Below, piece after piece: positions 22,862 through 49,161 of a stretch of 64,000 bases of DNA. A program made the position numbers and the translations under genes. Position 1 is the first letter of the stretch; each line of letters begins with the position of its first letter. Origin of the DNA: Ulota crispa (lineage: Eukaryota > Streptophyta > Bryopsida > Orthotrichales > Orthotrichaceae); contig OY987244.1 in assembly GCA_963920765.1 (NCBI GenBank), positions 3,598,501-3,662,500 of the forward strand, written 5' to 3'. The notes under the pieces are model-generated. The model did not search any database. It was not told the origin of the DNA and worked only from the letters and a program-made list of their open reading frames with translations.

Positions 22862-24157
22862 CTAAACCTGCACATCCTCCGGTATGTGCCAAGTTTGCTC
22901 GTCCTCTATATCTTGGTTGTCTTCTGCATCTTCCAAATCTTCATCTCTATCTTCAGCTCCTTCGTGGCTTCGCACCTCTTGAGGGTTAAAAATCTCCTCA
23001 AGGTCTTCATGATGAAATCTTCCACTCCTTCGAAAAGCTTTAATTTGTTTACCAGTAACAGGCACGCGCAGAGAAGTCCCATCCAATTCTCTAAGTGAAT
23101 AAGTGCCGTTGGTGTGCACTTTCATCACAACATAGGGTCCAAACCATCTCTTAGCAAATTTGCGCATTGTACTATACTGATGCTCCAATGTACTGTCAAA
23201 TACAAGGACCCAATCACCCTCTCCGATCTGCTTGGTTCTTAATCTGTGTGTTTTGTCGAATCGCTCTTTATTGCTGAGCCTCGCTGTCTTCATCTTCTCC
23301 AATGCAATATCAAGGTCACTTGACAACCTTCCAAGCTGCTGAATCCGAAGTTTCAACAGTCTTTCTCTGCTTATACCATCCTCCTATGAAAGAAACACCC
23401 ATGTGAGAATATCCTCTTCCGCCGGCATAATAGGTTTCTGCCCATACACAAGTTCGACAGGCATGTAATCAGTAACTGTACTGTGCGTAGTTTTGTCGGC
23501 CCACAAAGCAAATGGTAATAGCTTTGGCCACATATTTGGTTTGCCTCTACAAGCTTTAACCAAAGCATGAATAATCGGAGGATGCCCTCTCTCAATTTTG
23601 CCATTAGCCTTAGGGTTGTAAGCCGTCGTCAGCTTCAACTGCACACCATAACGTTTGAAGAACTCTTTGGCCTCAGTGGCATTTACTTCTCCTCTGCCAG
23701 CTCTCATTCGGCCAATGTTGCCATAACGACTGAAGATGTCTTCGAGTATAAATCGGCATACATTTTTGGTAGCCTTAGTCCTCAAGGCTCTGCCCTCAAC
23801 GAAATTTGAGAGCTCCTCTTGTGCCAAAACAAGGTACTTCATTCCCCACATAGCATTTGGCATGGCTACCAAATCTATCATCCACTGAAAATGGATTGCT
23901 AGAGGGTAAGCAGGATGTAATTCATCTCTGTAGCGCACCTTGGATTGCAGTTGGCACACCACACAAGAAACTACAAACTCTTCAACGTCTTTGTAAAGTC
24001 CTTTCCACCAGTACCTCTCCTTGATTTTTGTATAAGTGGCCCATACACCTCTGTGACCTGCCCAAAGAGTATCATGGAACTCCTTGAGAACTTCAGCTTT
24101 GGTCTTAGAGTCCCCTACCACTCTCAATGGTACTTCATCAGCTCTTTTTTCCCTCTT
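22862..24157 (-). pseudogene. Element 1 integrase and C-terminal domain
   Basis: Minus strand. Zinc-finger-like start with HRGVWAT...RYWWKG and CVVCQ. Core: first acidic residue in WMIDLVAMP; the segment expected to hold the second Asp reads MRAGRGEVNA, with Gly (codon 23696-23698) in the expected place; the Glu is present in NGKIERGH. A GPY/F-type motif (RWFGPYVVMKVH) follows, then an acidic tail ending at 22862. Two in-frame stops interrupt it, near 24158 upstream and near 23384. Loss of the second catalytic Asp and the stops indicate this copy cannot integrate by itself. Confidence 0.85.
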
Positions 24158-26449
24158 TCATAAAAATCCTTCTCTCAAAAGATATCTATAGGATTGATGC
24201 CTGATGTCTTTGAATGTTTTGTCTGTCCATCCTTCTTGCAGCTTCATTGTGCTCAAATATAGCCCAATGTCTTTCAATTTTTCTTCATAAAGCTCAGTTT
24301 TGAATGGTAAAGCATCGATCGATGAGCTCTCAGCATCTATCGTCACCACATAGCCTCCATGCAATAAATCTTCGACATCTTCGTGGCCCATCATCTCATC
24401 TTCATTAGAATACCTTACCCTAGACAATATATCGGCAACAGAATTCTTTTTGCCTTCAATGTGTACTAGAACCGGATTCATAGATTTGATGTAGGCGATC
24501 CATCGAAGCATTGCAATGTCTGGTGAAGAACAATTTGCTATCATCCCCAGCAAAGGTAAGCAATCAGTCTCCAGTACCACCTCTGCTCCAATAAGGTAGT
24601 TTCTGTCCGCCTTCAGAGCTGTAAGAGCACCCCATAGTTCTCTTTTCACTTGTGGATATGCTCTTTGACGCTCTGTCAAAATCCTTGCTTCAAATCGAAT
24701 AGCAAATCTTTTGCCTTCCTCATCATCTTGTCCAATAGCCTAACCTATGGCAATTGGACTTGTGTCAACAGTCACGATCACCGGCCTCTTGCAATCATAG
24801 TTCACTTACTTGAGAACTGGTGGCGACTCCAAAATCCTCTTCAACTCTTTCATAGCTAAGTTTTGCTCATTTTCTCAAATGAATTTGATCCTCTTACGCA
24901 ATAATTTGTAGAGAGGCTCTGATATATGAGCAAAATGGGGAATCCATATGTGATAGAAGACACAAGCTCCAAGAAACCTCCTTACTTCGGTGATATTGCT
25001 ACAGGCTTTCATTCTTCCAATAGCATCAACCTTTTCAGGATTAGGTTTTCTTCCATAAGAGCCACATAAGTGCCCAACCACCAGAATTTCATTCACCCCA
25101 AATTTTGACTTATCAATGGATAGAGTCAAATTCACCTTCTCAAGTCTGCCCAAGATTTGAGCCACGTCATGGATATGGTTGTTCACAAAGGCTCGGCAAC
25201 CATCACTCTGAACCGTCAAGTCTCTTTGATTCTCCTCGCATCCTTTTATTGGGATATCATCCACAAAAGGTATGGTTTTCTCTGGCACAAAGTCTCTTAA
25301 AATTTGATTCATAGCGCTTTGCATGTGTGCCACTGAATTAGTAGCGTCTTGAGGCAATGTGCACATACGCACCAATCCAAGAGGAGTTTTCATGGTCGTC
25401 AAATCCCTGCTTTGAGCAGCAAGTTGGAATTGATCATAATCAGAGTATAGATCTCCAATGGAATAGATTGCATGTCCAGCAAATGCCTCCGCCACTTCGT
25501 CCACAATAGGGCCTGATCCTTTGTTTCTGATTGTAACTTTGTTTGCAGGTTGCATATCTTGAATGAATCTCAATGCTCCTGACTTCTTTGGCACAGTAAA
25601 CCAACGGTTTGAATATGGGGCCATTGAAGGCTCTAGTATGCCCATGCGTGTCTTTTCTTTGAGCAACTCCACTAATTTCGGCAGTAGAGCTCTAGGCACT
25701 GGAATAGGCTTCAAATCCCATGGTATATGTGGTACTGTGAATATGACCATTGGTGCTACAACACTTGGCTGCACACATCCAATCTCATCTGAAGAAGAAG
25801 CAAAAGCCTTTCCATGCATCAAAAGCATGTCTTGAAATTTCTTTCTCTTTGGCTCAGTCAAGAAACCATCTCCTCCAATCTTGAGGTTAGCTAGAGTCTC
25901 TTTGGTGAATTTGTGTCCAATTCTCCTTGACTCTCTCAAACTTGGCTCTTTCTCAGCTTGTTTGATGTCATCATCAGTGTCAAATGGTAGCTGAGTAGCC
26001 ACTAGCTTCACCTTCTTGTTCACAGTCTTGTACTTGGTATGTACTGCAGCTTCAGGTCTATGTCCATTGATGTTAGAAGAACACAGCTTTGCCATTGCTG
26101 TAGAAATTTCATGATGCATTGCAGCTGTATGGACATCAATAAGACAATGAGTAGTCGGCTCTGCACCCTCATTTGTCTTCAAATCTTGCAAAGTATGCAA
26201 GATATCATCTGGCATACCACTTTCTTCATACATACCAGTAATGCTCTCATCTTCTTCAAGAACCTTCATTTTTTTTAGGTTTTTCTCTTTCTTTTTGATA
26301 AATCTTCTATGTACATGGTCCAAGTCTTTGGCATCCATGAAACTCGCAAATCCACATTTTGTCACGCTCAAAAATCCGCACTTGAAAGCAGTATGTATAT
26401 TGGGGAATTTTCTAGTATTGATATCCTTGGCACCCGTGGTTCCCCACAT
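24158..26449 (-). pseudogene. Element 1 reverse transcriptase and RNase H
   Basis: Minus strand. A spacer with many acidic and basic residues comes first. RT signatures are RWFTVPKKSGALRFIQD, DLYSDYDQFQLA and the active-site box PFVDDIPIKG (FVDD). RNase H follows with ERQRAYPQVKRELWGAL, VLETDCLPLL and a DILSRV-type end. Stop codons break the frame near 24872, 24805 and 24740; each is one transition away from Arg, Gln or Trp. A frame change separates this block from the protease near 26450. Domain order and motifs are clear. Confidence 0.88.
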
Positions 26450-26463
26450 CCCACGTGTGCCCT

Positions 26464-27045
26464 CTAGAAATCCGGAAAGTTCAAAGAAGTCGGCAAAGAT
26501 ACTTCTCTGAGTTGCATTCGGTGCCTCTCGTAGTTAGCTCTCACAGTTAAAAACTGCACTGACTTCTTCCCATCTATACTTCGAATTCGAGCATAGTGAG
26601 ATCCATCATCTAATACTTTGGTCTCCATGCGTGAGGCAGTGATGAAAGGTTGGCCCAGAAGCACTGAATATGCTCCAGTATTCTGAACAAAGAAATTTTG
26701 CTCAACCTCCACATCTCCAATCTTTGCTGGCACTGAAGGGCAAGCTCCATACAATGAACTGCGCCCATTGTTAGCTGCTCTCATCACCCAGCCATGTTCT
26801 GTGTCAATTGACCATTTGCCCTTCTCATAGGTCTTGCGAGATATGATGTTGATCTCTGAACCATGATCTACAAGGGCCAAAACAGACTCATCCATTCCAC
26901 CAAGCTTCACTCTCGTCTCAGTGGTGGCTCTAGCCCAATACGATTGCTGAAACTCAGTCTCGACATCATGAGGTCCATCAGTAGAATGATCACAACTGAA
27001 CTCAAAAGTCTTAGCTTCAATCTTTGATACTCCATCATCAGATGT
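26464..27045 (-). pseudogene. Element 1 aspartic protease
   Basis: Retropepsin-type motif VLALVDHGSEINIIS: the usual D-T/S-G triad is DHG here, followed by a second conserved stretch (SVLLGQPFI) about 80 residues on. The upstream part joins the zinc-binding region but is split by a stop at 27046. The protease processes the Gag-Pol polyprotein in such elements. Confidence 0.7.
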
Positions 27046-31294: not shown

Positions 31295-31363
31295 GCGTAC
31301 TATCACTAATAGCAAATAAAAACAAAAATGTAACCCAAAAACATATATATAAATATGCTTTCA
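31295..31363 (-). repeat. LTR2-family fragment (tail)
   Basis: Begins GCGTACTATC five bases after the end of LTR1 and ends TTTCA one base before a complete LTR2. Matches 21444-21512. Confidence 0.75.
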
Positions 31364-31364
31364 A

Positions 31365-31823
31365 TGATAAGATATAAAATCTAAGCACTTAAGCGTTAGT
31401 CAAGCTACCTTTTACTTTGCTCACGGGAGAATCCAAGAGTGCAAGGAGAAACGTGAAAGATAGTATAAAACTTAAGAAAATACAACAAGCTTATTCTCTC
31501 TTAAAAACACCTCACAAGACTTGACTTGGTAAACAATGCCAATTTAGGGAAGTAACATGCCTTAACTAATCCCAAACCCTAAGTTGCCTTAAATAAAGTG
31601 CCACCTAGAATGAGGTGCCAAAGGCCCTAACCTTGTCCAAAACTACTAAAAACAAAGATCATCTACTAATGACATACATCTAATGTGGCATAGCCACAAT
31701 GCTACATCACGTGACAATTGTTATGTAAATAGAGATTGCTAAATACAACACATTGTATACTATCACTAATAGCAAATAAAAACAAAAATATAACTCAAAA
31801 ATATATATACAAATATGCTCTCA
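31365..31823 (-). repeat. Element 2 left (3') LTR
   Basis: 459 bp with TG...CA ends (TGATAAGATA...GCTCTCA). Its inner edge abuts a polypurine tract on the minus strand. It matches the right copy at 41093-41427 over the first ~335 bp. Confidence 0.8.
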
Positions 31824-31838
31824 ATTGTCCCCCTTAGC
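31824..31838 (-). other. Polypurine tract of element 2
   Basis: The minus strand reads GCTAAGGGGGACAAT directly before the LTR start TGAGAGCATA. Position and composition fit the plus-strand primer of LTR elements, and it fixes the LTR boundary at 31823. Confidence 0.75.
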
Positions 31839-32762
31839 TGGCTAATAGAGACCCACGAGTCAACTAGGACTATATTAAAAGTATAGCTAGATCCAAATGC
31901 TAAGATGAATAGAAAGTATTCAACATCTATCTACACCAAAGGTGAGATTGTTGGCGGCCGACAATGACAAATGAACATGATGAAAAGAAAGTATAAAAGA
32001 TTGTAGGCCGGGTGCAATAATAAGCCCTATCATCAATCACCTTTGGCAAATTTTTTGTGTCAATCTTTTATTCAATTTTCCATTAGTCCAATCTTGTGTA
32101 CTGCAAATTTGGCGCTTAGTCAACTAATGTGGCAACGTTGTCATTTTGAACATAAGAGGTTTGACTTCAAGAGATTATTAGCGCTTATCCGGAGATGTAG
32201 CATGGCCTGAAGATCTCATACAATAAGGACAAATCCAATCTCTTAGAGGCAGAGTTGACAAGGGTGGAACTAAGCATGCCATATGTCAACCACGTTGACA
32301 CTGGTCACATAAAAGTATAGTAGCCGCGCCTTACTTCTCTCCACAAACAAAACAAGGTAATCCATCTGGCACCACTGCCAACTCTGGCTGTACGGTACCA
32401 TCAATGGGCAAGTGACAAGGAGTACAATTTTTAGAATGCTCCCTGCATTTTCGTCCATCTTTGCCTTTCAACAAAAGAATGCCACTAGGCAAGACATTCT
32501 TTGCGCAAAGAATAGTACGTCATGCTCTGACATCTAATGTAGTAGGCGCCTTACGCTGCAAATACACATAGTCTCATTGAGAGAACCTTCACAGTTGAGG
32601 TTGATAAGCGCCACTATGAATGTACGCATAATGCAAAGAATCTTAATATTAGGCTCTGTGTAAGTTCTACAAAGCCATAAACATGGCCCTCCTGAAGAAC
32701 TCAACCCGATCATGTAGGTATTGAATCCAAATATTTGAACTATCCAAGTCCACAATTGAAGC
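31839..32762 (-). pseudogene. Element 2 region downstream of integrase core
   Basis: Between the integrase core and the polypurine tract. Short broken frames remain, including a Cys-rich piece (near 32270-32458) and a piece at 32534-32806. No domain recognised. Probably the integrase C-terminus and 3' untranslated region. Confidence 0.4.
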
Positions 32763-33500
32763 TTATTTCTCCTGCACAGAACTAGGCAAAATAGGCTCCC
32801 ATCCATATAGCAACTGATAAGGGTTGTAAGAGGCCAATAAAGCTTGCTTACTAAAACGGTAACCTATGGCAATCCATGATAACATCAAATTCCACTCTTG
32901 ATGGTTTCCATGAAGCAATCCATACTTGCGTAAACCACGTTTGACTGTTTGAACAACCCGTTCAGCCAAACCATCCGCCTTAGAGTGATCTCTAGAGGTG
33001 GTGCGGTGATCAATGAAAGCCTTGGTACATAGAGTCTTAAAAGCCTCTAGAAACTCTTGGCATTGGTCTAATAAGACTTTAGCTGGTGCTCCAAAACGTA
33101 CCAATACTTGGTGAAGAAATGCCATAGCCGCTAACTCCAAAGATTTCTGAGGCAAAACAACCAGTTCAATCTATTTGCTAAAATGCTCTATTATCACTAA
33201 TACGTATTTGGCTCTACGTGGGGTGATAACAAATGGTCCGAGCAAAGTCTAAAGACCAACAATAACCTAAACTTATGATAAATAAAGGCCTCAACTGTAG
33301 TGATAAGGTGTTAAAACTTGATCTTACTCGATCACACACCTCACACCGAAAAACATAGGTAGAAACTTGCCGGTACATGCCAATCCACCAATACTGATTG
33401 CGCAATATAGAATGCGTTTTGCGCACTTTAAAATGACCAAGCTCCTCATGCATTTGATGTATTAAAGAAACTCTCTGGTCCAATCGAGGAACTATGCGCT
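32763..33500 (-). pseudogene. Element 2 integrase
   Basis: Minus strand, two main pieces. The N-terminal HHCC zinc finger is visible as HQMHEELGHFK ... YVFRCEVC, followed by the first acidic residue in WSLDFA. The second piece has LLDQCQEF with the second Asp and ADGLAERVVQT with the Glu, then RYGLL-like and PYQLLYGWEPILPSS ends. The D, D and E are all present, but stops and a shift near 33160-33214 disable it. Confidence 0.85.
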
Positions 33501-33540
33501 TAGCTCTATCTGGTTAAATTCATATCAACAAACCGTCATT

Positions 33541-34300
33541 TTAATGGAACCTTGCTATTCGATGGTAAATTTTGTCTCGTTCCATGGTATAAATACTCAA
33601 AAAAAAGGATCCATGCTGGAATTTGTGCAACACCACTATGTCTTTCCACACATCTCTAATATTCTGAGACTTATCAAACTTGTCATTCAAACCTAGATCA
33701 ACCGCTTCAGTAGCAAAGCTTGACATCAAAGTAAAATAAACAACTGCGTGCCAGCCTAGGTCTCTTTTCCTGTCGCAATTCCCATACCATTTGACATCAG
33801 TCAAATCCTCATCAAAAGGACTTAGATTACAAGAAAGCCCATCCGCATCCAAGTTAGTAATATCAGCTCGATAAACAACCTCAAAGTTGTACTCTTGAAA
33901 CAGCAAAACCTACCTAGCAAGCTTGCCAGTAAATTTATCTGATTCTATAAGCTACTTTAAAGGTTGATGGTCTGTAACCAATGTGAATCGCTACCCATAT
34001 AAATAAGGCCGAAAATGTGAAATGGCCCATGCCGTAGCTAAAGCTTCTCCCTTATAAAACGAATAGTAAGACTCTATTAAGTTGTTACTCCTTGAAGCAA
34101 AGGCAATAACATACTCTTGTCCCACATCATCTATCTGAGTAAAAACTGCACCTAATTCCATTGTATTTCAATTTGTATGCAATTAAAAATGCCTAGTAAC
34201 ATTATGACGTCGAAGCACAAGTGCTGAATCCAACTTTTGCTTTAACGTATAAAAAGACGGCTACTGCTCACGGCTCCATATTCATATTTGGTCTTTGTCA
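33541..34300 (-). pseudogene. Element 2 RNase H
   Basis: Minus strand. Open from 33906 with FQEYNFEVVYRADITNLDADGLS, the usual C-terminal end of gypsy RNase H (a stop precedes it), and earlier broken stretches reading LVTDHQPLKYL near 33960. A spacer to the integrase follows. Confidence 0.75.
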
Positions 34301-35330
34301 GTGAGCATAATCAAAGGCTTGGCAATCAAGCTAAAGCTTTTGACAAAGCAGCGATAATAATTTGCTAAGCCAAGAAATGCGCGCAGCTGAGAAATATCAC
34401 AAGGTGCTAAAAGCTTTTAAAGAGCATCCACCTTTGCCTGCTGTACGCCAAGTTCTCTTAGAACTATCATGTGTCCAAAGTACAACAACCGGTCATGGAA
34501 GAATTTGCACTTGCCATAATGCAAGCGCAATCTCCACTTTCGCAACCACTCAAAAACGGCTTGCAAATGCCTCACATGCTCTTGAGGTAAACTACTAAAG
34601 ACAATAATATTATCAATATAGCACCAAGCAAATGGCAATCTAGTCAAAACACAGTCCATTACCCTTTGAAACTCAGCAAGTGCGTATTTAAGACCAAATG
34701 AAAGAAACTTCCAATGATAGAGGAGATCTTTGCCATCATGATCCACTCCTGACAATGCAGTTTTTCACAATTTTCCAACCGTAGTGGCAACTGATGGTAT
34801 CTAGATTTCAAATCTAATGTACTGAAGATTTGAGCCAATCCTACTATATCAAATAACTCTTCCGGCATTGGCATAGGATATCGGTCCAATTTGGTCTTTT
34901 TATTGACCGGACGATAATCTCTACACATCCTCTTCTCAGTCTAAATTCTAAAAATATTATTTTTAGAAGGCATCACCATAGCACAAGTGTACTTGCCATT
35001 AGATAACTCAATCAAACCTGCAGCTAAAAGCTCTTGGCATTGGGTTTGAACACCAGTTCTTTTAGAACTATTCAGGTTATAAGGACGTCTGAAGATCAGA
35101 TGATCATTCTTAAGCTAAATGTGAATGCGCTTGCTTTTATAACCCTTCAAATCATGAAGGTTAAAAGCAAAGCAGCTCCGATACGAGTGCACAAATGCTT
35201 GCACCTCATATGCCTCAACATCTGTGACATGATGACCTAAACTCAAAGGCCAATTATCAAACTTTCTAGTAGTCTTCTCTAACAACAGACCACCGCCAGA
35301 TGTGGACACAATCTGTGGTTGCTAATCAGA
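34300..35330 (-). pseudogene. Element 2 reverse transcriptase
   Basis: Minus strand. CRDYRPVNKKTKLDRYPMP and IFSTLDLKSRYHQLPL are typical fingers and palm motifs. The active-site box reads CYIDNIIVFS: the second catalytic Asp of YIDD is Asn (codon 34609-34611). LRAFLGLANYYR follows near 34380. At least one stop before CRDYRP and one frame change near 34740 break the ORF. Confidence 0.88.
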
Positions 35331-35559
35331 AGAGGAAGGTACAATATCATTGCCTCCAGCATCACCATTTAAGGCCAAAATAGCAAAAGCTTTTTGAGCT
35401 TGAGCTCCTCCAAAGTTTACCATTGAAAATGAAAATGATGCTCATAATTATCTTGAACTGTAGCGATTGACATTTCCACTGCTCCATGACCATTATCCTC
35501 TGTCCTCAAAGTGAACGAATAGTCATTTTACTGCTGAACAGCAAGGCGAATGCTAACAG

Positions 35560-36601
35560 CTCAAACCATGGTATGAAGATCCATAGCCTGGCCCAATACA
35601 AAACATCGTTGATCTTCAGTGAGATCATGAATTACTGTAGTGCCAGAAAAAAAATCCATGGCACGCTTTTGCTCACCCACATTGGATTCTTCATAAGCGT
35701 AGCTATGAGAATCCCACACCATGTCAGGTCAACGTACTTAAAATGCAAAGGACTTAAGATATGTAACAAAGGTTGATAATGCCTCACAAGGCTTTTCAAC
35801 TTTGTTGATCAAAGCAAAAGGAAGTGAATTATTTTTTGTTACAACCAAAGATTCTTTGTGGTCATCCAAAAAATCCTTTACAACACGCCCTGAAGGTTTA
35901 ATAACTCGTGAAAGTGCCTTAGCCAATATAGAATGTGACATCATGTTGGTCCAAAGCTAACGTGGTCAACAAATAAACAACCCTAATGGCGTGGCATCCA
36001 CAAAGGTTGGAAGACCAAGAATTTGGCAAATGTAATGGCCATCATCCATTACCTTTAGGCAATCATTGCTCAATGGAGATACATTTTCAAAAATATACGC
36101 GAGTAGAATAGTTTGATGGTTATACCACCATTGTATAATCTTCATTAACTCCATAAAAGTGCTAGATCTTGGGTCATCTAACCCTTGACTTGCATCCACT
36201 TGTGAATGACATTGGTAAAGCTATCTTGCCGTAAGCAAATCAACGTGGCCCAACCTCTTCAAATTCTCATCACCAATAAAGGCAATGTCTCTAAAAATGT
36301 GGCCAAAACATCCATGAATGGATGACGGAGGCAATTGCTCAGAAAACTCAGCTATCAACTTTTGAAAATGATGTCAGGCTGCTCTGGTAGGCACATAACT
36401 GTTATCCACATGAACGTATCGCCAAACTATGAGCCTAGCCTCTAAAATGGCTGCTAATCCGGCACCAATGCTTCCAAAAAGCTCCACAAAAGTGATTTCG
36501 TCTACAAATACACGCCAATGAATAGGTTGTCCAAACATAAAGCTAATGGGAGGAGTAGAAACCAAAGAATCAAAAGGTATAGAAGCTGCAATATCCATAC
36601 A
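35560..36601 (-). pseudogene. Cytosine-5 DNA methyltransferase domain inside element 2
   Basis: Minus strand, between protease and RT. C5-methyltransferase motifs appear in canonical order: motif I FVELFGSIGAGLAA (S-adenosylmethionine binding, about 36491-36450); the motif IV region after LGHVDLL, where the expected Pro-Cys-Gln reads Leu-Tyr-Gln after a stop (Tyr codon 36215-36217); QGLDDPRSSTF after it; motif VI YIFENV (36080-36088); and a C-terminal GEQKRAMDFFSGTT and QRCFVLGQAMDLH that correspond to motifs IX and X (about 35690-35570). Stops break it at several places. The loss of the catalytic Cys means no activity. Such an enzyme would methylate DNA, perhaps the element's own; that role is inference. 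Upstream pieces to 36826 may belong to it or to a linker. Confidence 0.85.
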
Positions 36602-36826
36602 TCATCGGGACAATCTCTGACGGCTTGTCCAAGGTGACAAAGCATCCTTACAATGCTGAAGTGCAGTCACCAAAACTGGTAATTCTTGCCGGTCCTCTGA
36701 AAATGCAGCAGCAAACGCCAAAGTCTCCTCTAAAAACAAAAGATCAAATTGAAGGTTCTTCAAAAATGCTGAGCATTCAAACATAGCATCAGCAGTCATA
36801 GATATAGTCAATGCTGCAAATGCCAT
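36602..36826 (-). pseudogene. Element 2 linker between protease and methyltransferase
   Basis: Alanine-rich helical piece (AFAALTISMTADAMFECSAF...) read in the same frame as the methyltransferase, separated from it by one stop at 36599-36601. No domain recognised. Confidence 0.5.
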
Positions 36827-37705
36827 TGGAATAAGCTCCTTCTAGCCATCGCTAAAACACCATTCTAGTAAACCCCACGCCTTTTTGATCCAATTATCCA
36901 TATCGAAATCAAGAAGGTAAAACGTCCACTAACCAACTAGAATATCATAGTTAGTAGCATTCATGATAGCAAATCTAAAAGAAAAGTGAAAATAGATAGA
37001 TCTCCCGCCTACTCAAAAAATCAGTTGTAGAAGCTCTTTGGTATAATCTGTAACACGCCCCGTGCCCTCAACTAAAATGACAATAGTGAATGGACAAGGT
37101 ACCAAGTTTTTAGCAGTCAAACCAAGTTTTGCCGTCAAATGCTTGTCAATTATAATTGGCTAGGCATCTGAATCCATCATTGGTCTAAGTGGAGTAGCTC
37201 GATGACCATGCTCTGTACTACATGAAACCACAAACATTCCATTATTATTTATTAAATAAACAATACTTGGGTGTACAGCCTGTCGTTCTCTTTCGGATTT
37301 TGCTGAAACATCAGCAGGATAAACTACTCCCGCCGTTAGAAGCGCATTTATAGATGAATGATGCGGTGTGTGGCTATCCACATCCTCACTAAATGCTGCA
37401 ATGGCTTCAGCTGCAAGTTTAGCTCGTAATTTTGCTTGAGTCTCTGAATCTTCAACTGAATAACTCTCGGCAACAGCTTGAGAAACCTGAAAAGATGGCA
37501 TGTCCGTATTCCTTTCTAAAACATGTCCCACCATATAAAAAATCTCAGAGGTTTGGAAATCAGATGCCATCAACTCTGAGCCAAAAAATATTGGCATTTG
37601 CATAACCTTAAAAATCATGGTTTGCAATAAATCAGATGAGGCAAAACCCTCAAAATGTGGAAGTACAACAACTGGGAGTTTGCCCGTGGCAACAATATTA
37701 ACCAA
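36827..37705 (-). pseudogene. Element 2 aspartic protease
   Basis: Minus strand. A 181-codon piece ends RPMMDSDA at 37160, followed by a TAG and then PIIIDKHLTAKLG; the D-S-G triad expected for a retropepsin is D-S-D here. NATNYDILVG, about 75 residues on, matches the second conserved element of such proteases. The Gly-to-Asp change and the stop both fit G-to-A or C-to-T. Confidence 0.7.
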
Positions 37706-37728
37706 ACCAAAAGATAATGGCAGGGTGC

Positions 37729-38033
37729 CTAGCCAATAGAATCAGCATGATCACTATGGCGTGCGCGTGAGACAGTAGTGACATCTAATATTGGTGAATA
37801 AACTGATCCATCAGTAGTCTGAGATTGGGTAGCAGCTGCAGCTCCCAATTTTTTAGATGCAAAAAATATGTAATGCTCAGAATTAGAATAACCAGTTATC
37901 TTCTTAGAAGGTCTCTCAAAATCAGAAATTTGAACCAATGATACAGAGGTTTTGAGCTTTTGCTTCAACTCTGTTATTTTGGCCTCAAGAGTCTTCTCTC
38001 TTCGTGATTTACTAGCTATAAAACTAGCTGACT
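37729..38033 (-). pseudogene. Element 2 gag-pol linker
   Basis: Broken frame with LKTSVSLVQISDFERPSKK and Ser/Thr-rich sequence between gag and protease. No domain recognised. Confidence 0.45.
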
Positions 38034-39170
38034 TTATCTCGGAATGAAGTTGAAATTAGTAATCCTTATCTGGTTAGAGCTGTCACAATCGTGACACTTT
38101 AAAGCCTTCTTCTTGGGCTTAGCTTCACCTTTCATATCTTTCTTTTTAGTAGCTTTGGATGGCTGAAAAAGAGTCTTGGGTTTCTCTAAGCAATCTTTCT
38201 TGATATGTCCATCTTGCTCACATTTCCAACAATGTACTATCTTCTCTGGTTTAATATTCGCCAGATTGCTAGTGACAGCAAGGGTCTTCTTAGATTTGGA
38301 AAAATTTGTCGTGAAAGTGATCATATTCGTAACGTCATGACGATAAAGAGTCTAGTCACATCTCTCAACGACAGCAAAAACTTTGGTTAAAGTAGCCATA
38401 CTCTCATAATCAAGAATAATCCGCAGGGATGCAAAATACAACAACTGCTTGTCGATCTTTGACAAAAAGATCTTCACAAGCTGACTTTCAGTAAAAACTC
38501 CACTAGACTTGACAACAAACCGTGCTAAGCAGATGTACATTGTATATGGCGTATCTTCATTCTTCCTCTAAAAATCTTGGATACTCTGCATTTGATCATG
38601 ACGGAATCTGCCTTATTCCACTTCTAAATGTTTAATGAACTGCGCTAGAGGATCAAACCGGGGTGAGGAGTCAACTATGGCCAGTGTTGCCTGAATAACT
38701 TGAGTCATGCGCAACATGATGGGTGGTATAACAGTCTTTGTTCTAAATCTCAGAACTATTGCTTTGTCTTTAGGATTCTCGGAGGCCTCTACTTCACCCT
38801 CGCTAGGTCTCTCCTTTACCTTCACAGTTAAGGAGGCTAAGGCAGCTACTGCGCCATCTTTAAGAGCTGAAATAAGCTCTATTTGCGTCTCCTAGTAAAA
38901 CTGCACCTCAAAAAGCTCAAGTTGATGAGCATGAGTCTACTGCTCATAGGTCTGAAGGCCCTCAAACTCTAAATGTTAAGGCAAAATCTCAAAAGCAAAC
39001 CAGTCATTGAGACTAAGTGATCTCAAGTGATTCTCCTTCATCCATGTACAAAAGCGAAGCCACCAATCAGGAAAGGAGATCTCCCTGGTGATTTTTGACA
39101 ACCAATCATGCACTAAATTGCAATGATCATCCTCCATATTGTAAAACGTGCCAAAACTCAAGATCCAAAG
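38034..39170 (-). pseudogene. Element 2 Gag with CCHC zinc knuckle
   Basis: Minus strand. The last piece (38034-38324) has a perfect nucleocapsid knuckle CWKCEQDGHIKKDC (CX2CX4HX4C), followed by lysine-rich sequence and a further CHDC. Upstream pieces (38352-38540, 38613-38825, about 38976-39170) carry the capsid-like part, with FDPLAQFIKHLEVE and DWWLRFCTWM. Several stops intervene. Confidence 0.8.
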
Positions 39171-39271
39171 TCCACTAGTAGTATTTAACATCGAATCAGG
39201 CTGAAAAGCCTCATTGGTATCTACCGCTAGCCCAAAGTCTTTGGTATAGTTACACAAATGAAAAAATGATC

Positions 39272-39376
39272 CACAATGACTAAATGACAAAGATTGTAAT
39301 AACCAAACAACGACTACAAAATAACTATAAAATGACTGTATAATCATGGTTTAGTCATTGTCACTTAGTCATTGTG
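39272..39376. mobile_element. Short inverted-repeat MITE
   Basis: CACAATGACTAAATGACAA on the left and TTAGTCATTGTCACTTAGTC through CATTGTG on the right form an inverted pair; 105 bp. It resembles parts of the MITE at 52978-53120. No clear target duplication. Confidence 0.55.
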
Positions 39377-39621
39377 AACCCGTTTTTTGTCTGTGTCACA
39401 TTTCAAATAGTTTGATGAAGAAAACTGATAATATCGACTTTTAGTCTGCACCATGAACAGACAATATAGGTACTTGCAACTATCTACAAGCTTATGGCAA
39501 TCTGCAATTATCTAAAGGCTTAGGGCAATTTGACCTGCAATCACCAGCAAATTGTGTGATTCACCAATAATAACATCTGGTAAGCACAGGTTCAAGACAT
39601 ACAAAAAGGTTTCGTCGGCAA

Positions 39622-39810
39622 TTAATCCAGCTTCACTTCCATAATATGCCCACCCTCAACGAACATAAAACGGGACAACACTGAATATATTCCAACAACA
39701 ATGACTGCAAACAAAAAGAAGGTACCAAAAATCCAAAATACAAATCTTGGATCATCTTCCTCAAACAACAAATAAGCAAAAATAAAACCTGCACAACCAA
39801 GTAACAACGT
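39622..39810 (-). pseudogene. Exon-like block encoding two membrane segments (host-gene-like)
   Basis: Minus strand: an acceptor (TTCTTTAG) precedes 39810 and the block stays open to a stop at 39622-39624. The peptide has two hydrophobic stretches (LLLGCAGFIFAYLLF and WIFGTFFLFAVIVVGIYSVL) joined by EEDDPRFVF, and ends GHIMEVKLD. It reads like the last exon of a small membrane protein and not like retroelement coding. Family not recognised. Confidence 0.4.
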
Positions 39811-40015
39811 CTAAAGAACAAGCCACTGTCAATCTACAGTGAAGTTCAAAACATGCTAACCTTTAGCCACTTCTCTAAAATGTCACCGCCACCCCATCAA
39901 AAGATTGCGTGTTAGACAACATTGTCATCCACATGTGCTCCTTCTTTCCGGCCTAAAACTATCACTCAATGACAAATAAGCAAAAAAAAATGAAACCAAC
40001 ACAACTGACGCTCAC

Positions 40016-40092
40016 CTATGGTAGGTGGTAAATAGCAAAATGGAATGCAACGACCTGCTATTCCAATGCCCCCAAACCCAATGTCCAACAAT
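40016..40092 (-). pseudogene. Second exon-like block upstream of 39622-39810
   Basis: 77 bp on the minus strand between an acceptor (TTGTGAG) and a strong donor (CATAG|GTGAGC). One frame reads LLDIGFGGIGIAGRCIPFCY, again membrane-protein-like. The phase does not join directly to 39810, so a further exon (perhaps near 39900-39955) would be needed. Tentative. Confidence 0.3.
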
Positions 40093-40372
40093 CTCACAAA
40101 TTTTTTTGACAATCTTCTATAAAATTAGTTGTAATGCTTAGGTTATGAAAATCCAATGAATTGCTTTTAAATTGTTTGGGTAATGTAATTAAACCAGATC
40201 TTTCATGAGCTTTAGCAGGTAATCCTTGGCTTAAATTCTGATTATGTGAAAAACCAAGAGGGGGAGATTCACAGCCAGAGATGGCTGGGGTTGGCTATGG
40301 TTGATTGTTAGAAACCGGATGAAAATTTAAGGGATAAATGGGATCTGGGTGATGAAACTCCAGCTCCCCTGA

Positions 40373-40760
40373 TGGTCGCTGCTCCGCTGCAGGCCTTCCC
40401 CGACATCGCCAGCTCCGGCACCTGCTCCCTCGACGCTGCCGAATCTGTCTCCCGAAACCCTAAGGCTTTCGTCGCCTCTCCGGCCAGCTCGCCCCTCCCG
40501 CAGTCCCGCTCGTCGAAGCTCCTGCGTGCTGCTCCCGGACTGCTAGTCGAGCGTTGCTCCCGCTACTCTCGACTCCGGAAACCCTAATTTTTTTTTTTTT
40601 TTGTCGTTGGTCGTCCCGCCTTCCTGCTCGTCGCAGCTGCCGGTGCCTTTTGCTGCGCGGTCGCGTGGCGGTCCGTCTCCGAAGTCTGAAACCCTAACTT
40701 TGAACGTCGAACTCCGCCCGGCTCCACTCAAGCTCCCGAAACCCTAGTTCTCACGTCGAA
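40373..40760. promoter_or_regulatory. GC-rich island with repeated telo-box motifs
   Basis: GC-rich block in AT-rich DNA with GAAACCCTA repeated at about 40464, 40577, 40689 and 40738. AAACCCTAA (telo box) is common in 5' regions of plant housekeeping genes. With the exon-like blocks at 39.6-40.1 kb this may be the promoter and 5' end of a small minus-strand gene. A plus-strand ORF of 71 codons is probably incidental. Confidence 0.35.
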
Positions 40761-41092
40761 GTCGCTTGCTGCCCGGACTTGTTTCGTCAAGCTCAGTCAC
40801 TGCTCCGTACTCCGGTCAGCTCCCACTAAATTCCAAATACTCAACAAAAAACAAACCACAACTAAAAACTAAAACTCGGACAGAAACTAAAAACCCTAGT
40901 TTCTCTCCTGCACAAGCGCCTCTGCTCAAGGCTTCTGCATAGCTTCCGTATGGATCAAGCTCACAACTCTCAACAAAAATAACGCATCTGTACTTACTCA
41001 ACCGTAAATCCAGAACCATAAACTAAACACCCAAAATCTCTATAAACCACAAAGATTCAAGACCAGCAAAAAAAACGGCATTATTTGTTGAG

Positions 41093-41427
41093 TGATAAGA
41101 TACAAAATCTAAGCACTTAAGCGTCAGTCAAGCTACCTCTCACTTTGCTCATGGGAGAATCCAAGAGTGTAAGGAGGAACGTGAAAGATAGTATAAAACT
41201 CAAGAAAACACAACAAGTGTACTCTCTCTCAAAAACACCTCACAAGACTTGACTTGGCAAAAAATGCCAATTTAAGGAAGTAACGTACTGGTCACTTCAA
41301 ATGAGGTGCCACCTAGAATGAGGTGCCAAAGGCCCTAATCTTCCTCAAAACTACTAAAAACAAAGATCATCCACTAATGACATACATTCAATGTGGCATA
41401 GCCACGATACCACATCACGTAACATTG
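41093..41427 (-). repeat. Element 2 right LTR, truncated
   Basis: Starts TGATAAGATACAAAATC and follows the left LTR until CACGTAACATTG, then diverges; the last ~124 bp are missing. The left LTR shows T where this copy has C at several places. Confidence 0.75.
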
Positions 41428-43399: not shown

Positions 43400-45492
43400 T
43401 AGGCACCCAAAACCCATGCAAAATGTACCATATTTGTGTATGGTGCTAGCTTCTTGTTATTGACTATTTAAAGATTAGTAGCAACAATGGTACCTCATAT
43501 GGGCAAGGCCAAGCTTGTTAGGAGAGTTATACTCTCTAATTCCTTAACTTGCCCCCCATAAGATCATTGAACATGACAAACGCTTTCTTAGCATTTGAAA
43601 TCAGCAAAATGGAGCTTTTTAGTGGTATAACAAAATGTGTCTAATTTGAACATTTTTAGAGGGACAAAGGGAGTATCAACCAAAAATTGATCAGATTTTA
43701 CAACGTTTTTAATTATAATGTATCTAAGTATGAATATAGTAAATACTTGGTGCTATCTAGCAAAAAAAAAAAAAAAACAGTTAAAAATGGGAAATACCAG
43801 ATTTTAGATGGTGAAACCAAAACTACTCCCCATAAGCTGCTTGGTAAGTGTTAAGTAGATTCATTTCAAAAATCCTAGCTAAAACTCTTTACCAATATAA
43901 ATGAGATGTCTCAATTTCACAATTCATCAAATATACTCCAATGACGTATTTAGCTAATTTTAGACTATGCAATGTCTAGAAATAAAATTCAAACAAATAA
44001 AACTCCAAAATCAAAAAAAATCAAAATACAAAGGTTCTGATTTAACGTGCATGCTGCCCCTTGATTCACACGGGCATAAAAAGAGACCAAACCTTCATGT
44101 CCAGCTCGAACGTAACTACACCTAAGTGCAACTTAATTGTAAAACCGATTATAGACCATAAATCTCTACCTAAGACACAAACACCTTTAAAATATGAAAA
44201 CATAAGTTTATTTATCAAATTACACCTATAATCACCATTTTAAAAACCAGTGAGTCCTTCCTCCTTCCACAAAGTATCCAGAAAATGTATACAAAAAGAA
44301 TCTAGAATGTTCTTTCAATGACCAACAAGATTACAAAACAGGGCCGGAATTCAGTGTCCATTGCTTCATCCACAAAATACCATCCATCTACTGAATATCA
44401 CCACTTACAGAACGTCATCCATTCACCGAATATCATTCATCTAATTGTCCTCAGACCGAAGTCCAACGTTGTCTAGCCTGGAATCCGACCGCGCTTCTTT
44501 TTCTTCCACAACATTTGTCTCTCGACAAACTCAACCAGACAAATTGCATTTCCGCATACAGAAATCACACTTTTAGTGCAGAAGATTTCCAAGTTCATGA
44601 TTGCAATTAGTCACGTTTCCTTTATGATCAAGCAATGGATCTTTTCCTAACAACTCTACAACATATAATGATGGACAAAATAGACTACGTACTTAAGGAA
44701 CCAAACATTGCTCTGACTTGGATTAACACACTGCATTAAATCAATTCAATAATATAGTAGAGTATGAATTTATCTGTTTTGTATGTGTTTATACTTTATA
44801 CACTCCAATTTTGCCAAAAGTGACATATGTCTAATCTACTTTCACCCCATGGCTAGACCTACCACGGCAGTTTTCGGATTGAGTGCATATCAAATTCACT
44901 GTCAAAAATGAAGCAGATGAATATATTTTGACCAAATGAAACTTTTGGTGCAAATGTGAACTGTTTTAATGAAATGAAACTTTAAAGACATGCACTACCC
45001 ATCTGCCTCTTAGACAATTTTTTCTCTCCCCTAAAGCCATGTTTCTTGAGAAATTTACAAGAAAACATACTCATGTTCTTACAATTCTTGAGGACGTTTT
45101 CTGTGATTTATCTAAATGAGTTTTTTTGACATCAATGTTAATACAAAGAACATCAACATTGATAGGAAGGTATGTTTTTTGAAACATTAAAAAAAACAAA
45201 GGTTTCCACTTGTGATAGCTACCTTCAAATATATAAAAAAACTTCCATGAAAGTTGAGTTCAAAATGCCTACCATAAAGTAATCATAGATAAAACAATCT
45301 ATCTAGATTAAAAAATCTTCCAATTGCTAACCTTTGCACTCTTTATATCAATGAGGTTACACTCAAATATCTCCTCAACTTCAAAACTATTAGAGAAAAA
45401 GTTTCCACTCCTTAATACAATGATGACTAATTTGAACACTTCCCTAAATGCAAAGATACTAAAGAACTCAAGTTCCCCTCTATTTCTAGTAA
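43400..45492. other. AT-rich intergenic stretch
   Basis: No gene seen. The right end should hold the 3' untranslated region of the PK-NB-LRR gene. A run of A occurs near 43769. Confidence 0.4.
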
Positions 45493-48400
45493 TCATGTCA
45501 AACTTGAACACCCCACCAACCTCAAAGATGTAAAGGAAGTCAAGTTCCCTACTCCTACTGGCAATGATGTCAAACTTGAACACGCATCCAAGCTCAAAGA
45601 TGTCAAGGAAGTCAAGTTCCCCACTCCTTCTGGCAATGATGTCAAACTTAAACACCCATCCAAGCTCAAAGATGTCAAGGAAGTCAGGTTCCACAATCCT
45701 TCCGGCAATGATGTCAAACTTGAACACCCATCCAAGCTCAAAGATGTCAAGGAAGTCAAGTTCCCCACTCCTTCCGGCAATAATGTCAAACTTGAACACC
45801 CCCCTAACCTCAAAGATGTCAAGGAAGTCAAGTTCCCCACTTCTTTCGGCAATGATGTCAAACTTGAACACCCATCCAAGCTCAAAGATCTCAAGGAAGT
45901 CAGGTTCCCCACTCCTTCCGGCAATGATGTCAAACTTGAACACCCCCCTAACCTCAAAGATGTCAAGGAAGTCAAGTTCCCCACTTCTTCCGGCAATGAT
46001 GTCAAACTTGAATACCCATCCAAGCTCAAAGATGTCAAGGAAGTCAGGTTCCCCACTCCTTCCGGCAATGATGTCAAACTTGAACACCCCCCTAACCTCA
46101 AAGATGTCAAGGAAGTCAAGTTCCCCACTTCTTCTGGCAATGATGTCAAACTTGAACACCCATCCAAGCTCAAAGATCTCAAGGAAGTCAGGTTCCCCAC
46201 TCCTTCCGGCAATGATGTCAAACTTGAACACCCCCCTAAGCTCAAAGATGTCAAGGAAGTCAGATTCCCCACTCCTTCTGGCAATGATGTCCAACTTGAA
46301 CACCCTCCTAATCTCAAAGATGTCAAGGAAATCAGATTCCACAATTCTTCCGGCAATGATGTCAAACTCGAACACCCATCCAACCTCAAGAATGTCAAAG
46401 AAGTCAATTTCCCCACTTCTTCCGGCAATGATGTCAAACTCGAACACCCATCCAAGCTCAAGAATGTCAAAGAAGTCAATTTCCCCACTCCTTCCGGCAA
46501 TGATGTCAAACTTGAACACCTCTCCAAGCTCAAAGATGTCAAGGAAGTCAAGTTTCCCACTTCTTCCGGCAATGATGTCAAACTTGAACACCTCTCCAAG
46601 CTCAAAGATGTCAAGGAAGTCAAGTTCCCCACTCCTTCCGGCAATGATGTCCAACTTATACACCCTCCTAATCTCAAAGATGTCAAGGAAATCAGATTCC
46701 ACAATCCTTCCGACAATGATGTCAAACTCGAACACCCATCCAAGCTCAAGAATGTCAAAGAAGTCAATTTCCCCACTTCTTCCGGCAATGATGTCAAACT
46801 CGAACACCCATCCAAGCTCAAAGATGTCAAGGAAGTCAGGTTCCCCACTTCTTCCGGCAATGATGTCAAACTCGAACACCCATCCAAGCTCAAGAATGTC
46901 AAAGAAGTCAATTTCCCCACTCCTTCCGGCAATGATGTCAAACTTGAACACCTCTCCAAGCTCAAAGATGTCAAGGAAGTCAGGTTCCCCACTCCTTCCG
47001 GCAATGATGTCCAACTTATACACCCTCCTAATCTCAAAGATGTCAAGGAAATCAGATTCCACAATCCTTCCAACAATGATGTCAAACTCGAACACCCATC
47101 CAAGCTCAAGAATGTCAAAGAAGTCAATTTCCCCACTTCTTCCGGCAATGATGTCAAACTCGAACACCCATCCAAGCTCAAGAATGTCAAAGAAGTCAAT
47201 TTCCCCACTCCTTCCGGCAATGATGTCAAACTTGAACACCTCTCCAACCTCAAAGATGTCAAGGAAGTCAGGTTCCCCACTTCTTCCGGCAATGATGTCA
47301 AACTTGAACACCCCCATAAGCTCAAAGATGTCAAGGAAGTCAAGTTCCCCACTTCTTCCGGCAATGATGTCAAACTCGAACACCCATCCAAGCTCAAGAA
47401 TGTCAAAGAAGTCAAATTCCCCACTCCTTCCGGCAATGATGTCAAACTTGAACACCCCCATAAGCTCAAAGATGTCAAGGAAGTCAAGTTCCCCACTTCT
47501 TCCGGCAATGATGTCAAACTTGAACACCTCTCCAAGCTCAAGAATGTCAACGAAGTCAATTTCCCCACTCCTTCCGGCAATGATGTCAAACTTGAACACC
47601 TCTCCAAGCTCAAAGATGTCAAGGAAGTCAAGTTTCCCACTTCTTCCGGCAATGATGTCAAACTTGAACACCTCTCCAAGCTCAAAGATGTCAAGGAAGT
47701 CAGGTTCCCCACTCCTTCTGGCAATGATGTCAAACTTGAACATCCATTCAACCTCAAAGATGTCAAAGAAGTCAGGTTCCACAATCCTTCCGGCAATGAT
47801 GTCAAACTTGAACACCTCTCCAAGCTCAAAGATGTCAAGGAAGTCAAGTTTCCCACTTCTTCCGGCAATGATGTCAAACTTGAACACCCCCATAAGCTCA
47901 AAGATGTCAAGGAAGTCAAGTTTCCCACTTCTTCCGGCAATGATGTCAAACTTGAACACCCATCCAAGCTCAAAGATCTCAAGGAAGTCAGGTTCGCCAC
48001 TCCTTCCGGCAATGATGTCAAACTTGAACACCTCTCCAAGCTCAAAGATGTCAAGGAAGTCAAGTTCCCCACTTCTTCCGGCAATGATGTCAAACTTGAA
48101 CACCCCCCTAACCTCAAAGATGTCAAGGAAGTCAAGTTCCCCACTCCTTCGGGCAATAATGTCAAACTTGAATACCCCCCTAACCTCAAAGATGTCAAGG
48201 AAGTCAAATTCCACAATCCTTCCGGCAATGATGTCAAACTTGAACACCTCTCCAAGCTCAAAGATGTCAAGGAAGTCAAGTTCCCCACTCCTTCCGGCAA
48301 TGATGTCAAACTTGAACACCAATCCAAGCTCAAAGATGTCAAGGAAATCAGATTCCACAATCCTTCTGGCAATGATGTCAAACTCGAACACCCATCCAAG

Positions 48401-49161
48401 CTCAAGAATGTCAAAGTAGTCAATTTCCCCACTCCTTCCGGCAATGATGTCAAACTTGAACAATGACTCAAGTTCAAAGATATCAAAGAGCTCAAGTTCC
48501 CCACTTCTTTTGGCAATTTAATCAAGTTTCTACATCTCCTCAAATCTAAACTCTTTAAAAAACCGAAAGCTGCTAATTGCATTAAAGTGCTCTCTAGAGT
48601 CAAAAGACACTCCATATCATTTGTCAACAATGATTTTGTTGATAAAATAGATGTTGGCAAACATCCAAAAAATGAACATCCTCTCAAGTGCAAAACATTC
48701 AAAGATGTCCAAGTTCTCCATAGATTTGGAGTATCAACCAACTTGGTCCAATTCAAATCCACTTCAATCTCCTTTGACAAATGGCAATCTTCTTCTTCAA
48801 TTGCTTCAACCCTATCATGTGAAATCTCCTTAGAATTCATCAAATGCAACGCTGATCCATAAGATCTATTCTCTCCCGCATTCTTGAATGACCTCGATTT
48901 TATGTTTGAAGACTTGACTCTCCTTTCAAGAGCTTGAGATACTTCCTCTGATATTTCAACCATAAACAACTTCAATCCATGGGACCGTCCACCAATTGAC
49001 AACAACAACCTCAAATTGTGAAGAGTTTCTTCCAAATTGCACTCATCACTCCAAAATACCAATAGCCGAAGCTTGCCCAAATCACATGAATGGTCTTTCA
49101 AAAGACAAGACACATGGCTCAAAGATGCTTTCCAAGAAATGCCTTCAAGCTTCTCAACATC
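45493..49161 (-). CDS. Exon 3: leucine-rich repeat domain
   Basis: Begins DVEKLEGISWKASLSHVSC, with a linker typical of the NB-ARC/LRR junction, followed by irregular LRRs (LVDTPNLWRTWTSLNVLHLRG). From about 48460 down to 45540 come about 40 units of 24 residues on the pattern LTSLTSLSLxxCSSLTSLPEE/GVGN. Variation concentrates at a few positions in each unit (S/R before L, the two residues before C, E/G near the end), the solvent-exposed side. It ends after a degenerate last unit (FTSLRLVGCSSLT). The units are far more alike than in most NLRs, a sign of recent tandem expansion. Confidence 0.93.
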   Translation of the reverse strand, partial: DVEKLEGISWKASLSHVSCLLKDHSCDLGKLRLLVFWSDECNLEETLHNLRLLLSIGGRSHGLKLFMVEISEEVSQALERRVKSSNIKSRSFKNAGENRSYGSALHLMNSKEISHDRVEAIEEEDCHLSKEIEVDLNWTKLVDTPNLWRTWTSLNVLHLRGCSFFGCLPTSILSTKSLLTNDMECLLTLESTLMQLAAFGFLKSLDLRRCRNLIKLPKEVGNLSSLISLNLSHCSSLTSLPEGVGKLTTLTFLSLDGCSSLTSLPEGLWNLISLTSLSLDWCSSLTSLPEGVGNLTSLTSLSLERCSSLTSLPEGLWNLTSLTSLRLGGYSSLTLLPEGVGNLTSLTSLRLGGCSSLTSLPEEVGNLTSLTSLSLERCSSLTSLPEGVANLTSLRSLSLDGCSSLTSLPEEVGNLTSLTSLSLWGCSSLTSLPEEVGNLTSLTSLSLERCSSLTSLPEGLWNLTSLTSLRLNGCSSLTSLPEGVGNLTSLTSLSLERCSSLTSLPEEVGNLTSLTSLSLERCSSLTSLPEGVGKLTSLTFLSLERCSSLTSLPEEVGNLTSLTSLSLWGCSSLTSLPEGVGNLTSLTFLSLDGCSSLTSLPEEVGNLTSLTSLSLWGCSSLTSLPEEVGNLTSLTSLRLERCSSLTSLPEGVGKLTSLTFLSLDGCSSLTSLPEEVGKLTSLTFLSLDGCSSLTSLLEGLWNLISLTSLRLGGCISWTSLPEGVGNLTSLTSLSLERCSSLTSLPEGVGKLTSLTFLSLDGCSSLTSLPEEVGNLTSLTSLSLDGCSSLTSLPEEVGKLTSLTFLSLDGCSSLTSLSEGLWNLISLTSLRLGGCISWTSLPEGVGNLTSLTSLSLERCSSLTSLPEEVGNLTSLTSLSLERCSSLTSLPEGVGKLTSLTFLSLDGCSSLTSLPEEVGKLTSLTFLRLDGCSSLTSLPEELWNLISLTSLRLGGCSSWTSLPEGVGNLTSLTSLSLGGCSSLTSLPEGVGNLTSLRSLSLDGCSSLTSLPEEVGNLTSLTSLRLGGCSSLTSLPEGVGNLTSLTSLSLDGYSSLTSLPEEVGNLTSLTSLRLGGCSSLTSLPEGVGNLTSLRSLSLDGCSSLTSLPKEVGNLTSLTSLRLGGCSSLTLLPEGVGNLTSLTSLSLDGCSSLTSLPEGLWNLTSLTSLSLDGCLSLTSLPEGVGNLTSLTSLSLDACSSLTSLPVGVGNLTSFTSLRLVGCSSLT

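Follow-up and report, generated by a model that had tools for sequence, protein, structure and literature searches.

The minus strand of a 64,000-nucleotide stretch of Ulota crispa DNA, referred to here as the window, contains a Ty3/gypsy-type element that spans approximately positions 31298–41424 and bears the remains of its own cytosine-5 (C5) DNA methyltransferase (MTase). The best explanation of the data, which we consider very probable together with the steps of expression, packaging, and integration proposed below, is that the element is one dead member of a retrotransposon present in many copies, with gypsy domain order and an MTase of the DNMT3 type. Plants use DNA methylation to silence transposons, so that it is paradoxical for a transposon to bring the silencing enzyme along.

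The element is organized as gag, protease, and MTase, followed by one UAG stop, and then reverse transcriptase, RNase H, integrase, and a PHD finger. The reading frames are open in the relative L010, a metagenome contig (CADCWO010000201.1), and are present as remnants in the window, where all parts lie on the minus strand. The LTR-like 5′ terminal repeat A1 (41093–41424) starts with TGTTACGTG and ends with TTATCA. The gag remnant with a CCHC zinc knuckle (38034–39239) was located by tblastn with the gag and ORF1 of L010 (46%), and its match to PF00098 (E 0.0016) is below the cut-off. The protease region and linker (36541–37723) were located with ORF1 of L010 (45%); the counterpart of the L010 motif DSGAQ starts at 37174 and reads DSDA followed by a stop, and the protease of L010 ORF1 matches PF13650 with an E value of 7.8e-4, below the cut-off of that profile. 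The ORF2 remnant (32184–35321; 66–74% in tblastn with L010 ORF2) contains the reverse transcriptase, RNase H, and integrase, and pieces of the window match RVT_1 (1.8e-16) and Integrase_H2C2 (4.6e-16). The reading frames of L010 contain the Pfam domains RVT_1, RNase H, Integrase_H2C2, and rve, and the order protease–reverse transcriptase–RNase H–integrase, which is shared by the window, is that of Ty3/gypsy elements. The integrase of L010 is followed not by a chromodomain, of which none was found at E ≤ 0.01 in Pfam, but by a PHD finger (PF00628, 4.3e-10, ORF2 residues 990–1034), which corresponds to 32190–32350 in the window translation. The ends of the L010 contig overlap by 127 bases, as would be expected if the assembly had looped through a repeat. 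The contig is filed under a cyanobacterial metagenome-assembled genome, and the related protein P0001 also has a bacterial label; these filings, cyanobacterial or Obscuribacterales, are probably binning errors in the public data, and L010 appears to be mis-binned.

The MTase domain (35560–36540) can be read in a single frame. FVELFGSIGAG (motif I, 36490–36458) is followed by DLLTAR, a stop, and a damaged motif IV, in which a tyrosine (36217–36215) occupies the position of the PCQ cysteine of the sister copy L003. FENV is located at 36091–36080, PR-stop-LWTN of the motif VIII region at 35965–35945, RAMDFFSGTT at 35665–35636, and VLGQAMDL at 35599–35576. The order I–IV–VI–VIII–X is thus the usual, unrearranged one, and tblastn with the L010 reading frames places all the motifs between the protease and the reverse transcriptase, as the initial annotation had proposed. 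The metagenomic MTase P0001 aligns with the window copy (L001) over 388 amino acids with 53% identity. There are seven in-frame stops within 36538–35560, and because of the stops, frameshifts, and replacement of the catalytic cysteine by tyrosine, the window copy is dead and can encode no working MTase. The annotation had also placed the enzyme inside the pol region. Its position between protease and reverse transcriptase holds, but in L010 the gag-pro reading frame ends with the MTase as its final domain, ahead of the stop and outside the reverse transcriptase–integrase frame.

The window copy alone has no match in Pfam at E ≤ 0.01, PF00145 included, and none in the PDB at E ≤ 10, and therefore sister copies and relatives were used for the identification. 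PF00145 matches the sister copy L003 at 2.6e-6 (27.5 bits, above the curated cut-off of 22) and ORF1 of L010 with 45.9 bits, also above the cut-off; the match to the sister L008 (5.2e-4) is below it. A PF00145 search had been suggested when the segment was first noticed; it thus fails for the window copy and succeeds for its sister. Together, the sequence comparisons confirm the window segment, above chance, as a decayed C5 MTase domain of the DNMT3 type.

Sequence, profile, and fold comparisons identify the element MTase as DNMT3-type, not CMT/MET-type. Its closest solved enzymes are DNMT3, and the family profile matches DNMT3A at 5.6e-25 and DNMT2 at 7.2e-6. The structure predicted from 12 alignment rows was poor (pLDDT 47.8), and that from 57 rows was good. 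In a 91-row MTase tree, the enzymes of the elements group in a single clade (100/98), separate from a group of DNMT3A and two host DNMT3s (99/94); the sister relation of the two is limited by several long branches and by DNMT3 rows that fill 28–42% of the columns. The viral-contig and bacterial MTases fall outside both groups. The outgroup MTases are distant matches from viral contigs (L009, 33%) and genome contigs (L011, 30%), and the scans of such contigs gave, besides L010, distant MTases only. The phylogeny that the initial annotation had called for thus sets the element enzyme apart from the intron-bearing DNMT3 genes of the host.

That a host MTase gene or pseudogene landed by chance in one gypsy copy is extremely improbable. 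The host genome could have supplied one, having at least three intron-bearing DNMT3 genes as well as DRM and CMT exons of its own, identified by eye, but the copies of the element contradict such a capture. In the 275 Mb genome (157 contigs), the MTase segment occurs at at least 39 further loci with 76–81% DNA identity; at 38 of these loci the match covers 1026 or more of the 1042 bases, and at the remaining one it is in two pieces. The count derives from 41 rows, one of which is the window and two of which belong to a single locus, and is a lower bound, as 40 of 82 first-look candidates were scored. In the copies whose next stretch was read, the MTase is followed by the stop of the element and the start of ORF2; its sequence groups with the MTases of other elements, apart from the host DNMT3s; and relatives with the same layout exist elsewhere. 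The initial annotation had named beforehand, as outcomes against its reading, the lack of a significant profile match, or a match to host CMT/MET genes only combined with absence of the segment from all other copies; what was found is a sister copy that matches PF00145 and a segment repeated at 39 other loci. The reading of the element as gypsy-type and equipped with a C5 MTase is thus borne out, and it is present in many copies.

The genome contains at least 40 copies of the element, and those that were read are decayed. Merged copy lists give up to 59 places, part of which were checked as element copies. One copy of a second subfamily, L025, retains a stop-free stretch of 384 amino acids in the MTase frame. 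When 11 copies were pooled and compared with the window copy, transitions exceeded transversions (1896 versus 403), and the fraction of differing sites was 0.49 for CG, 0.49 for CHG, and 0.33 for CHH. The excess of transitions and the higher divergence at CG and CHG than at CHH sites fit decay driven by methylation. Two pairs of loci have equal scores and opposite orientation, L003 and L004 (G000:C3, 32.77 and 32.75 Mb) about 20 kb apart, and L053 and L054 (G000:C4, 9.41 and 9.40 Mb) about 12 kb apart; both look like inverted segmental duplications that hold the element.

An MTase that acts on RNA, or serves as a non-catalytic, Gag-linked DNA-binding module, is an unlikely reading of the domain. 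It draws on the related Klebsormidium enzyme, which produced no DNA methylation in yeast, a result that its authors called inconclusive, and on RNA methylation, which was raised as a possibility for the enzymes of LINE elements (PMC5890265). The conservation of the element enzyme speaks against it: WPCQ is invariant in all 12 rows of the MTase alignment, W116, C118, E161, N162, and R201 are each at least 90% conserved in the 57-row alignment, and the family profile, as given above, matches DNMT3A far better than DNMT2.

The gag-pro-MTase and reverse transcriptase–integrase frames are separated by a UAG codon (35322–35324). At the end of ORF1, L010 reads AAG TAG CAA TCA, and ORF2 follows without a change of frame; the window reads TAG CAA CCA (35324–35316), and L025, which is closer to L010 in the tree, reads TAG CAA TCA. 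UAG followed by CAR YYA is the readthrough consensus of TMV, and a rice gypsy element has been cited as a readthrough candidate (PMC2754532). The full motif is present at 21 of 30 loci including the window, a stop at 28, and CAA at 29; the 30 loci were fetched from 40 scored among 77 candidates, and two pairs look like duplicates. This conservation is high but not unique, as 17 of the 342 nine-base windows of the stretch, that of the motif included, are conserved at least as well. The UAG column has a stop fraction of 0.93 and the next highest column 0.27, after setting aside three upstream columns (beyond about codon −27) in which most copies have a stop, one column being represented by just two copies; we read the three as out of frame through an indel of the window copy itself. 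RNA folding 3′ of the stop has a z-score of −3.4 in L010 and −1.6 in the window, and no conserved structure is claimed. From its sequence context, we infer that UAG-CAR-YYA is a readthrough stop. Such readthrough is not general in the wider family, since P0060, P0136, P0140, and P0210 encode MTase and reverse transcriptase in one stop-free reading frame.

The repeats of the element are arranged in the order A–ORFs–B–A–B. Repeat A is present at both ends, and B, which stands before and after A2, at the 3′ end and internally. A polypurine tract, AAGGGGGACA (31826–31835), directly precedes B1 (31717–31825), which abuts A2 (31365–31716), and the truncated B2 (31298–31364) completes the element. 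The tract was found in the same position in four of four copies read (window, L035, L037, and L010). A1 (41424–41093) and A2 (31716–31365) have an identity of 0.903 over 331 aligned sites, with 29 transitions and three transversions (K80 0.106). Other copies give the length of B, about 109 nucleotides, and the direct contact of B1 with A2. When B1–A2–B2 was used as a query, 34 of 40 scored loci including the window, out of 216 candidates, matched positions 1–527 or 1–528, five matched A–B2 only, and one ended at position 461 of 528. Six other 5′ ends that were read contain CTTGGCAAAG or a close variant 3′ of A1. The sequence resembles a primer site, for which no tRNA was identified, and its counterpart in the window, CTCAACAAAT, is more changed.

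The ends of the element are TG...CA, and a 4-bp target duplication, read by comparing the bases that precede TGT of A with those that follow ACA of B2, was found in all nine copies read, exact in four and one transition off in five. The 3′ boundary was fixed after seeing the sequences, and one of the exact cases has mutated first bases of A; agreement this good is expected by chance in about 5 of 256 copies. Five of the nine copies consist of A–B2 alone, the product expected from a recombination of A1 with A2, and in the other four the 5′ and 3′ ends are 10–14 kb apart and enclose an MTase copy. No duplication was seen at the ends of the window copy itself, where B2 is truncated. Most LTR lineages of plants typically duplicate 4 or 5 bp of their target (PMC6317226).

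The repeat order is described as typical of DIRS elements (PMC5890265), and a DIRS-type element integrated by a tyrosine recombinase, with a misleading gypsy appearance, would account for it. We regard this as very unlikely, given the target duplications with TG...CA ends and the domain content of L010: the two stretches searched, its reading frames except for the gag portion, which lies at the other end of the contig, contain RVT_1, RNase H, Integrase_H2C2, and rve but yielded no tyrosine recombinase or phage-integrase domain at E ≤ 0.01 in Pfam. The view of A1 and A2 as ordinary LTRs was also dropped, given the B repeats, the position of the polypurine tract, and the target duplications.

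By the ordinary rules of reverse transcription, the LTR would then be B–A, and the linear cDNA B–A–ORFs–B–A. A circularly permuted LTR is suggested, because the tract precedes B in an element with TG...CA ends and 4-bp duplications. A two-LTR circle opened at the B/A joint, which reads ACA-AT-TGT in the genome of the window and ACA-GC-TGT in L010, would give the inserted form A–ORFs–B–A–B if only one of the two possible joints were used. The polypurine tract, the primer-site-like sequence, and the target duplications thus provide a testable account of DIRS-like repeats on a gypsy-type element.

For the living relatives of this gypsy-type retrotransposon, these features can be combined into a putative replication cycle. 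A small share of ribosomes would read through the UAG, so that the MTase would be made at the level of Gag and packed into the particle with the template. The packed enzyme may methylate the new cDNA of the element before or during integration, with protection of the cDNA or quieting of the new copy as possible effects; that self-methylation hides the element or spares the host, as the initial annotation suggested, is likewise hypothetical. The PHD finger may read histone tails and steer the integrase, and the integrating form would be the circularly permuted B–A LTR. The stop turns the dose into a testable statement, in which the MTase would be made along with Gag and the polymerase would be rare.

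Relatives of the element occur well beyond this genome. A search with the L003 copy identified 18 proteins at E ≤ 1e-3, none of them named to a eukaryote, with metagenomic matches reaching 7e-141. A search with an alignment of 12 of these identified 193 proteins, of which 120 were listed; three of those listed carry an organism name, namely Calypogeia fissa (P0032), Marchantia polymorpha (MARPO_0008s0049, P0045), and, with a bacterial label, P0001. In Marchantia, a single reading frame combines a CCHC knuckle and a DSGAQ protease motif, both recognized by eye, with the MTase, which is the only domain called by Pfam. The integrase tail of L010 identified 267 proteins, and among the 120 listed the PHD tail matched in 119. 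According to the family profile, 50 of these 120 contain an MTase in the same reading frame, in one of two placements. The MTase precedes the reverse transcriptase in three (P0136, P0140, and P0210), lies between reverse transcriptase and integrase in 20, and precedes the integrase in 27 whose listed frame has no reverse transcriptase; a cruder count grouped P0136 with the last set. In three scanned members of the 20 (P0156, P0170, and P0179), RNase H lies between the reverse transcriptase and the MTase. Family-profile MTase stretches directly before the integrase, in frames without a reverse transcriptase, are also found in Volvox reticuliferus (P0158, 55.8 bits) and Tetrabaena socialis (P0173, 87.4 bits). 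Neither has a PF00145 call at E ≤ 0.001, and thus these volvocine stretches are diverged or decayed.

The before-integrase MTases, together with P0102, form one clade in the 91-row MTase tree (99/86). Their elements, plus one row without an MTase in its frame, also form one clade (98% SH-aLRT) in an integrase–PHD tree, which was built by a quick method with a midpoint root from 68 of 109 rows, after dropping those with neither reverse transcriptase nor MTase in the frame. A division of the MTases into two sister clades by placement is not supported: those before the reverse transcriptase are not recovered as a clade in the MTase tree, where P0060 and P0057 branch outside the rest. One acquisition with a later move of the MTase fits these data most simply; several related acquisitions are the alternative. 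Since the before-integrase placement is one clade in both trees, the element MTases are one clade, and the host range is wide, an old acquisition is favoured over an event in Klebsormidium only. The liverwort relatives and the diverged volvocine ones make an old origin of the family within the green lineage probable. The initial annotation had proposed colonisation of this plant's ancestor by a related element; related elements do exist, but given these hosts its wording may be too narrow.

The closest known system is KnitGypsy-Dnmt3 of Klebsormidium nitens, compared here through its published description rather than its sequence. It shares the gypsy-like domains, an unrearranged Dnmt3-type MTase in the polyprotein region, and DIRS-like repeats in the order A–coding–B–A–B (PMC5890265). 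The present element differs in belonging to another plant genome, with at least 40 copies that are decayed where read, and, relative to that description, in the PHD finger on the integrase and the readthrough-type stop between MTase and reverse transcriptase. The terms PHD, readthrough, and split direct repeat are absent from the main text of that paper, in which the one mention of a stop codon refers to decayed LINE copies. No sequence named to K. nitens is among the element relatives listed. SymbioDIRS-Dnmt3 of Symbiodinium also combines a Dnmt3-type MTase, which methylated CG in yeast, with A–B–A–B repeats, but has a tyrosine recombinase and a DIRS polymerase and was treated as an independent acquisition (PMC5890265). 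The precedents that the initial annotation had mentioned are therefore real; the published account treats the cases in one charophyte and in the dinoflagellates as separate captures (PMC5890265), and the K. nitens and Symbiodinium cases are repeated in a 2025 survey (PMC12344493).

Chromoviruses and other plant Ty3/gypsy clades share the order protease–reverse transcriptase–RNase H–integrase (PMC6317226), but the present element has a PHD finger instead of a chromodomain after the integrase, an MTase, and permuted terminal repeats; neither methyltransferase nor PHD appears as a word in the main text of that source. Plant and animal DNMT3s resemble the element MTase in sequence, fold, and motif order, but the latter is fused to gag-pro in L010 and forms its own clade. 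In the open-access literature, with subscription journals thinly covered, we found no report of MTase elements in land plants or volvocine algae, or of a PHD integrase, a readthrough stop, or a permuted LTR in such elements.

Elements of this kind are thus present in two liverworts and in a further plant genome, while volvocine elements retain diverged remnants of the MTase, and the liverwort, green-algal, and environmental relatives suggest that the kind is older and more widespread than the alga of its first description. The present data offer a possible reason for the DIRS-like repeats on the gypsy-like domains of KnitGypsy. A broader proposal, which we put forward tentatively and consider rather doubtful, is that these elements may represent an unrecognised class of green plant and green algal retroelements between Ty3/gypsy and DIRS. 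Its DNMT3-type MTase would have been acquired once, deep in the lineage, and now stand either ahead of the reverse transcriptase or after RNase H and ahead of the integrase; some members of the class would make it at the level of Gag by means of a UAG-CAR-YYA readthrough stop. With their PHD-finger integrase, the elements would integrate as a permuted B–A LTR, from a two-LTR circle opened at the B/A joint, and the circular cDNA would be methylated before landing, as a silent or 'self' mark.

The window contains three further features. A second, distant gypsy-type element with long open stretches lies on the minus strand at 23201–26533 and has 23% identity to L010 ORF2 across reverse transcriptase–integrase. 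An inverted repeat at 7180–7740 has 230-base arms that are 97% complementary and separated by 101 bases. At 45307–49161 on the minus strand, about 43 very regular copies with a spacing of 72 bases encode 24-residue leucine-rich repeats of the SLTSLPEGVGNLTSL type (LRR_14, 8.6e-153), and three other frames of this array are also open, over about 960–1070 amino acids.
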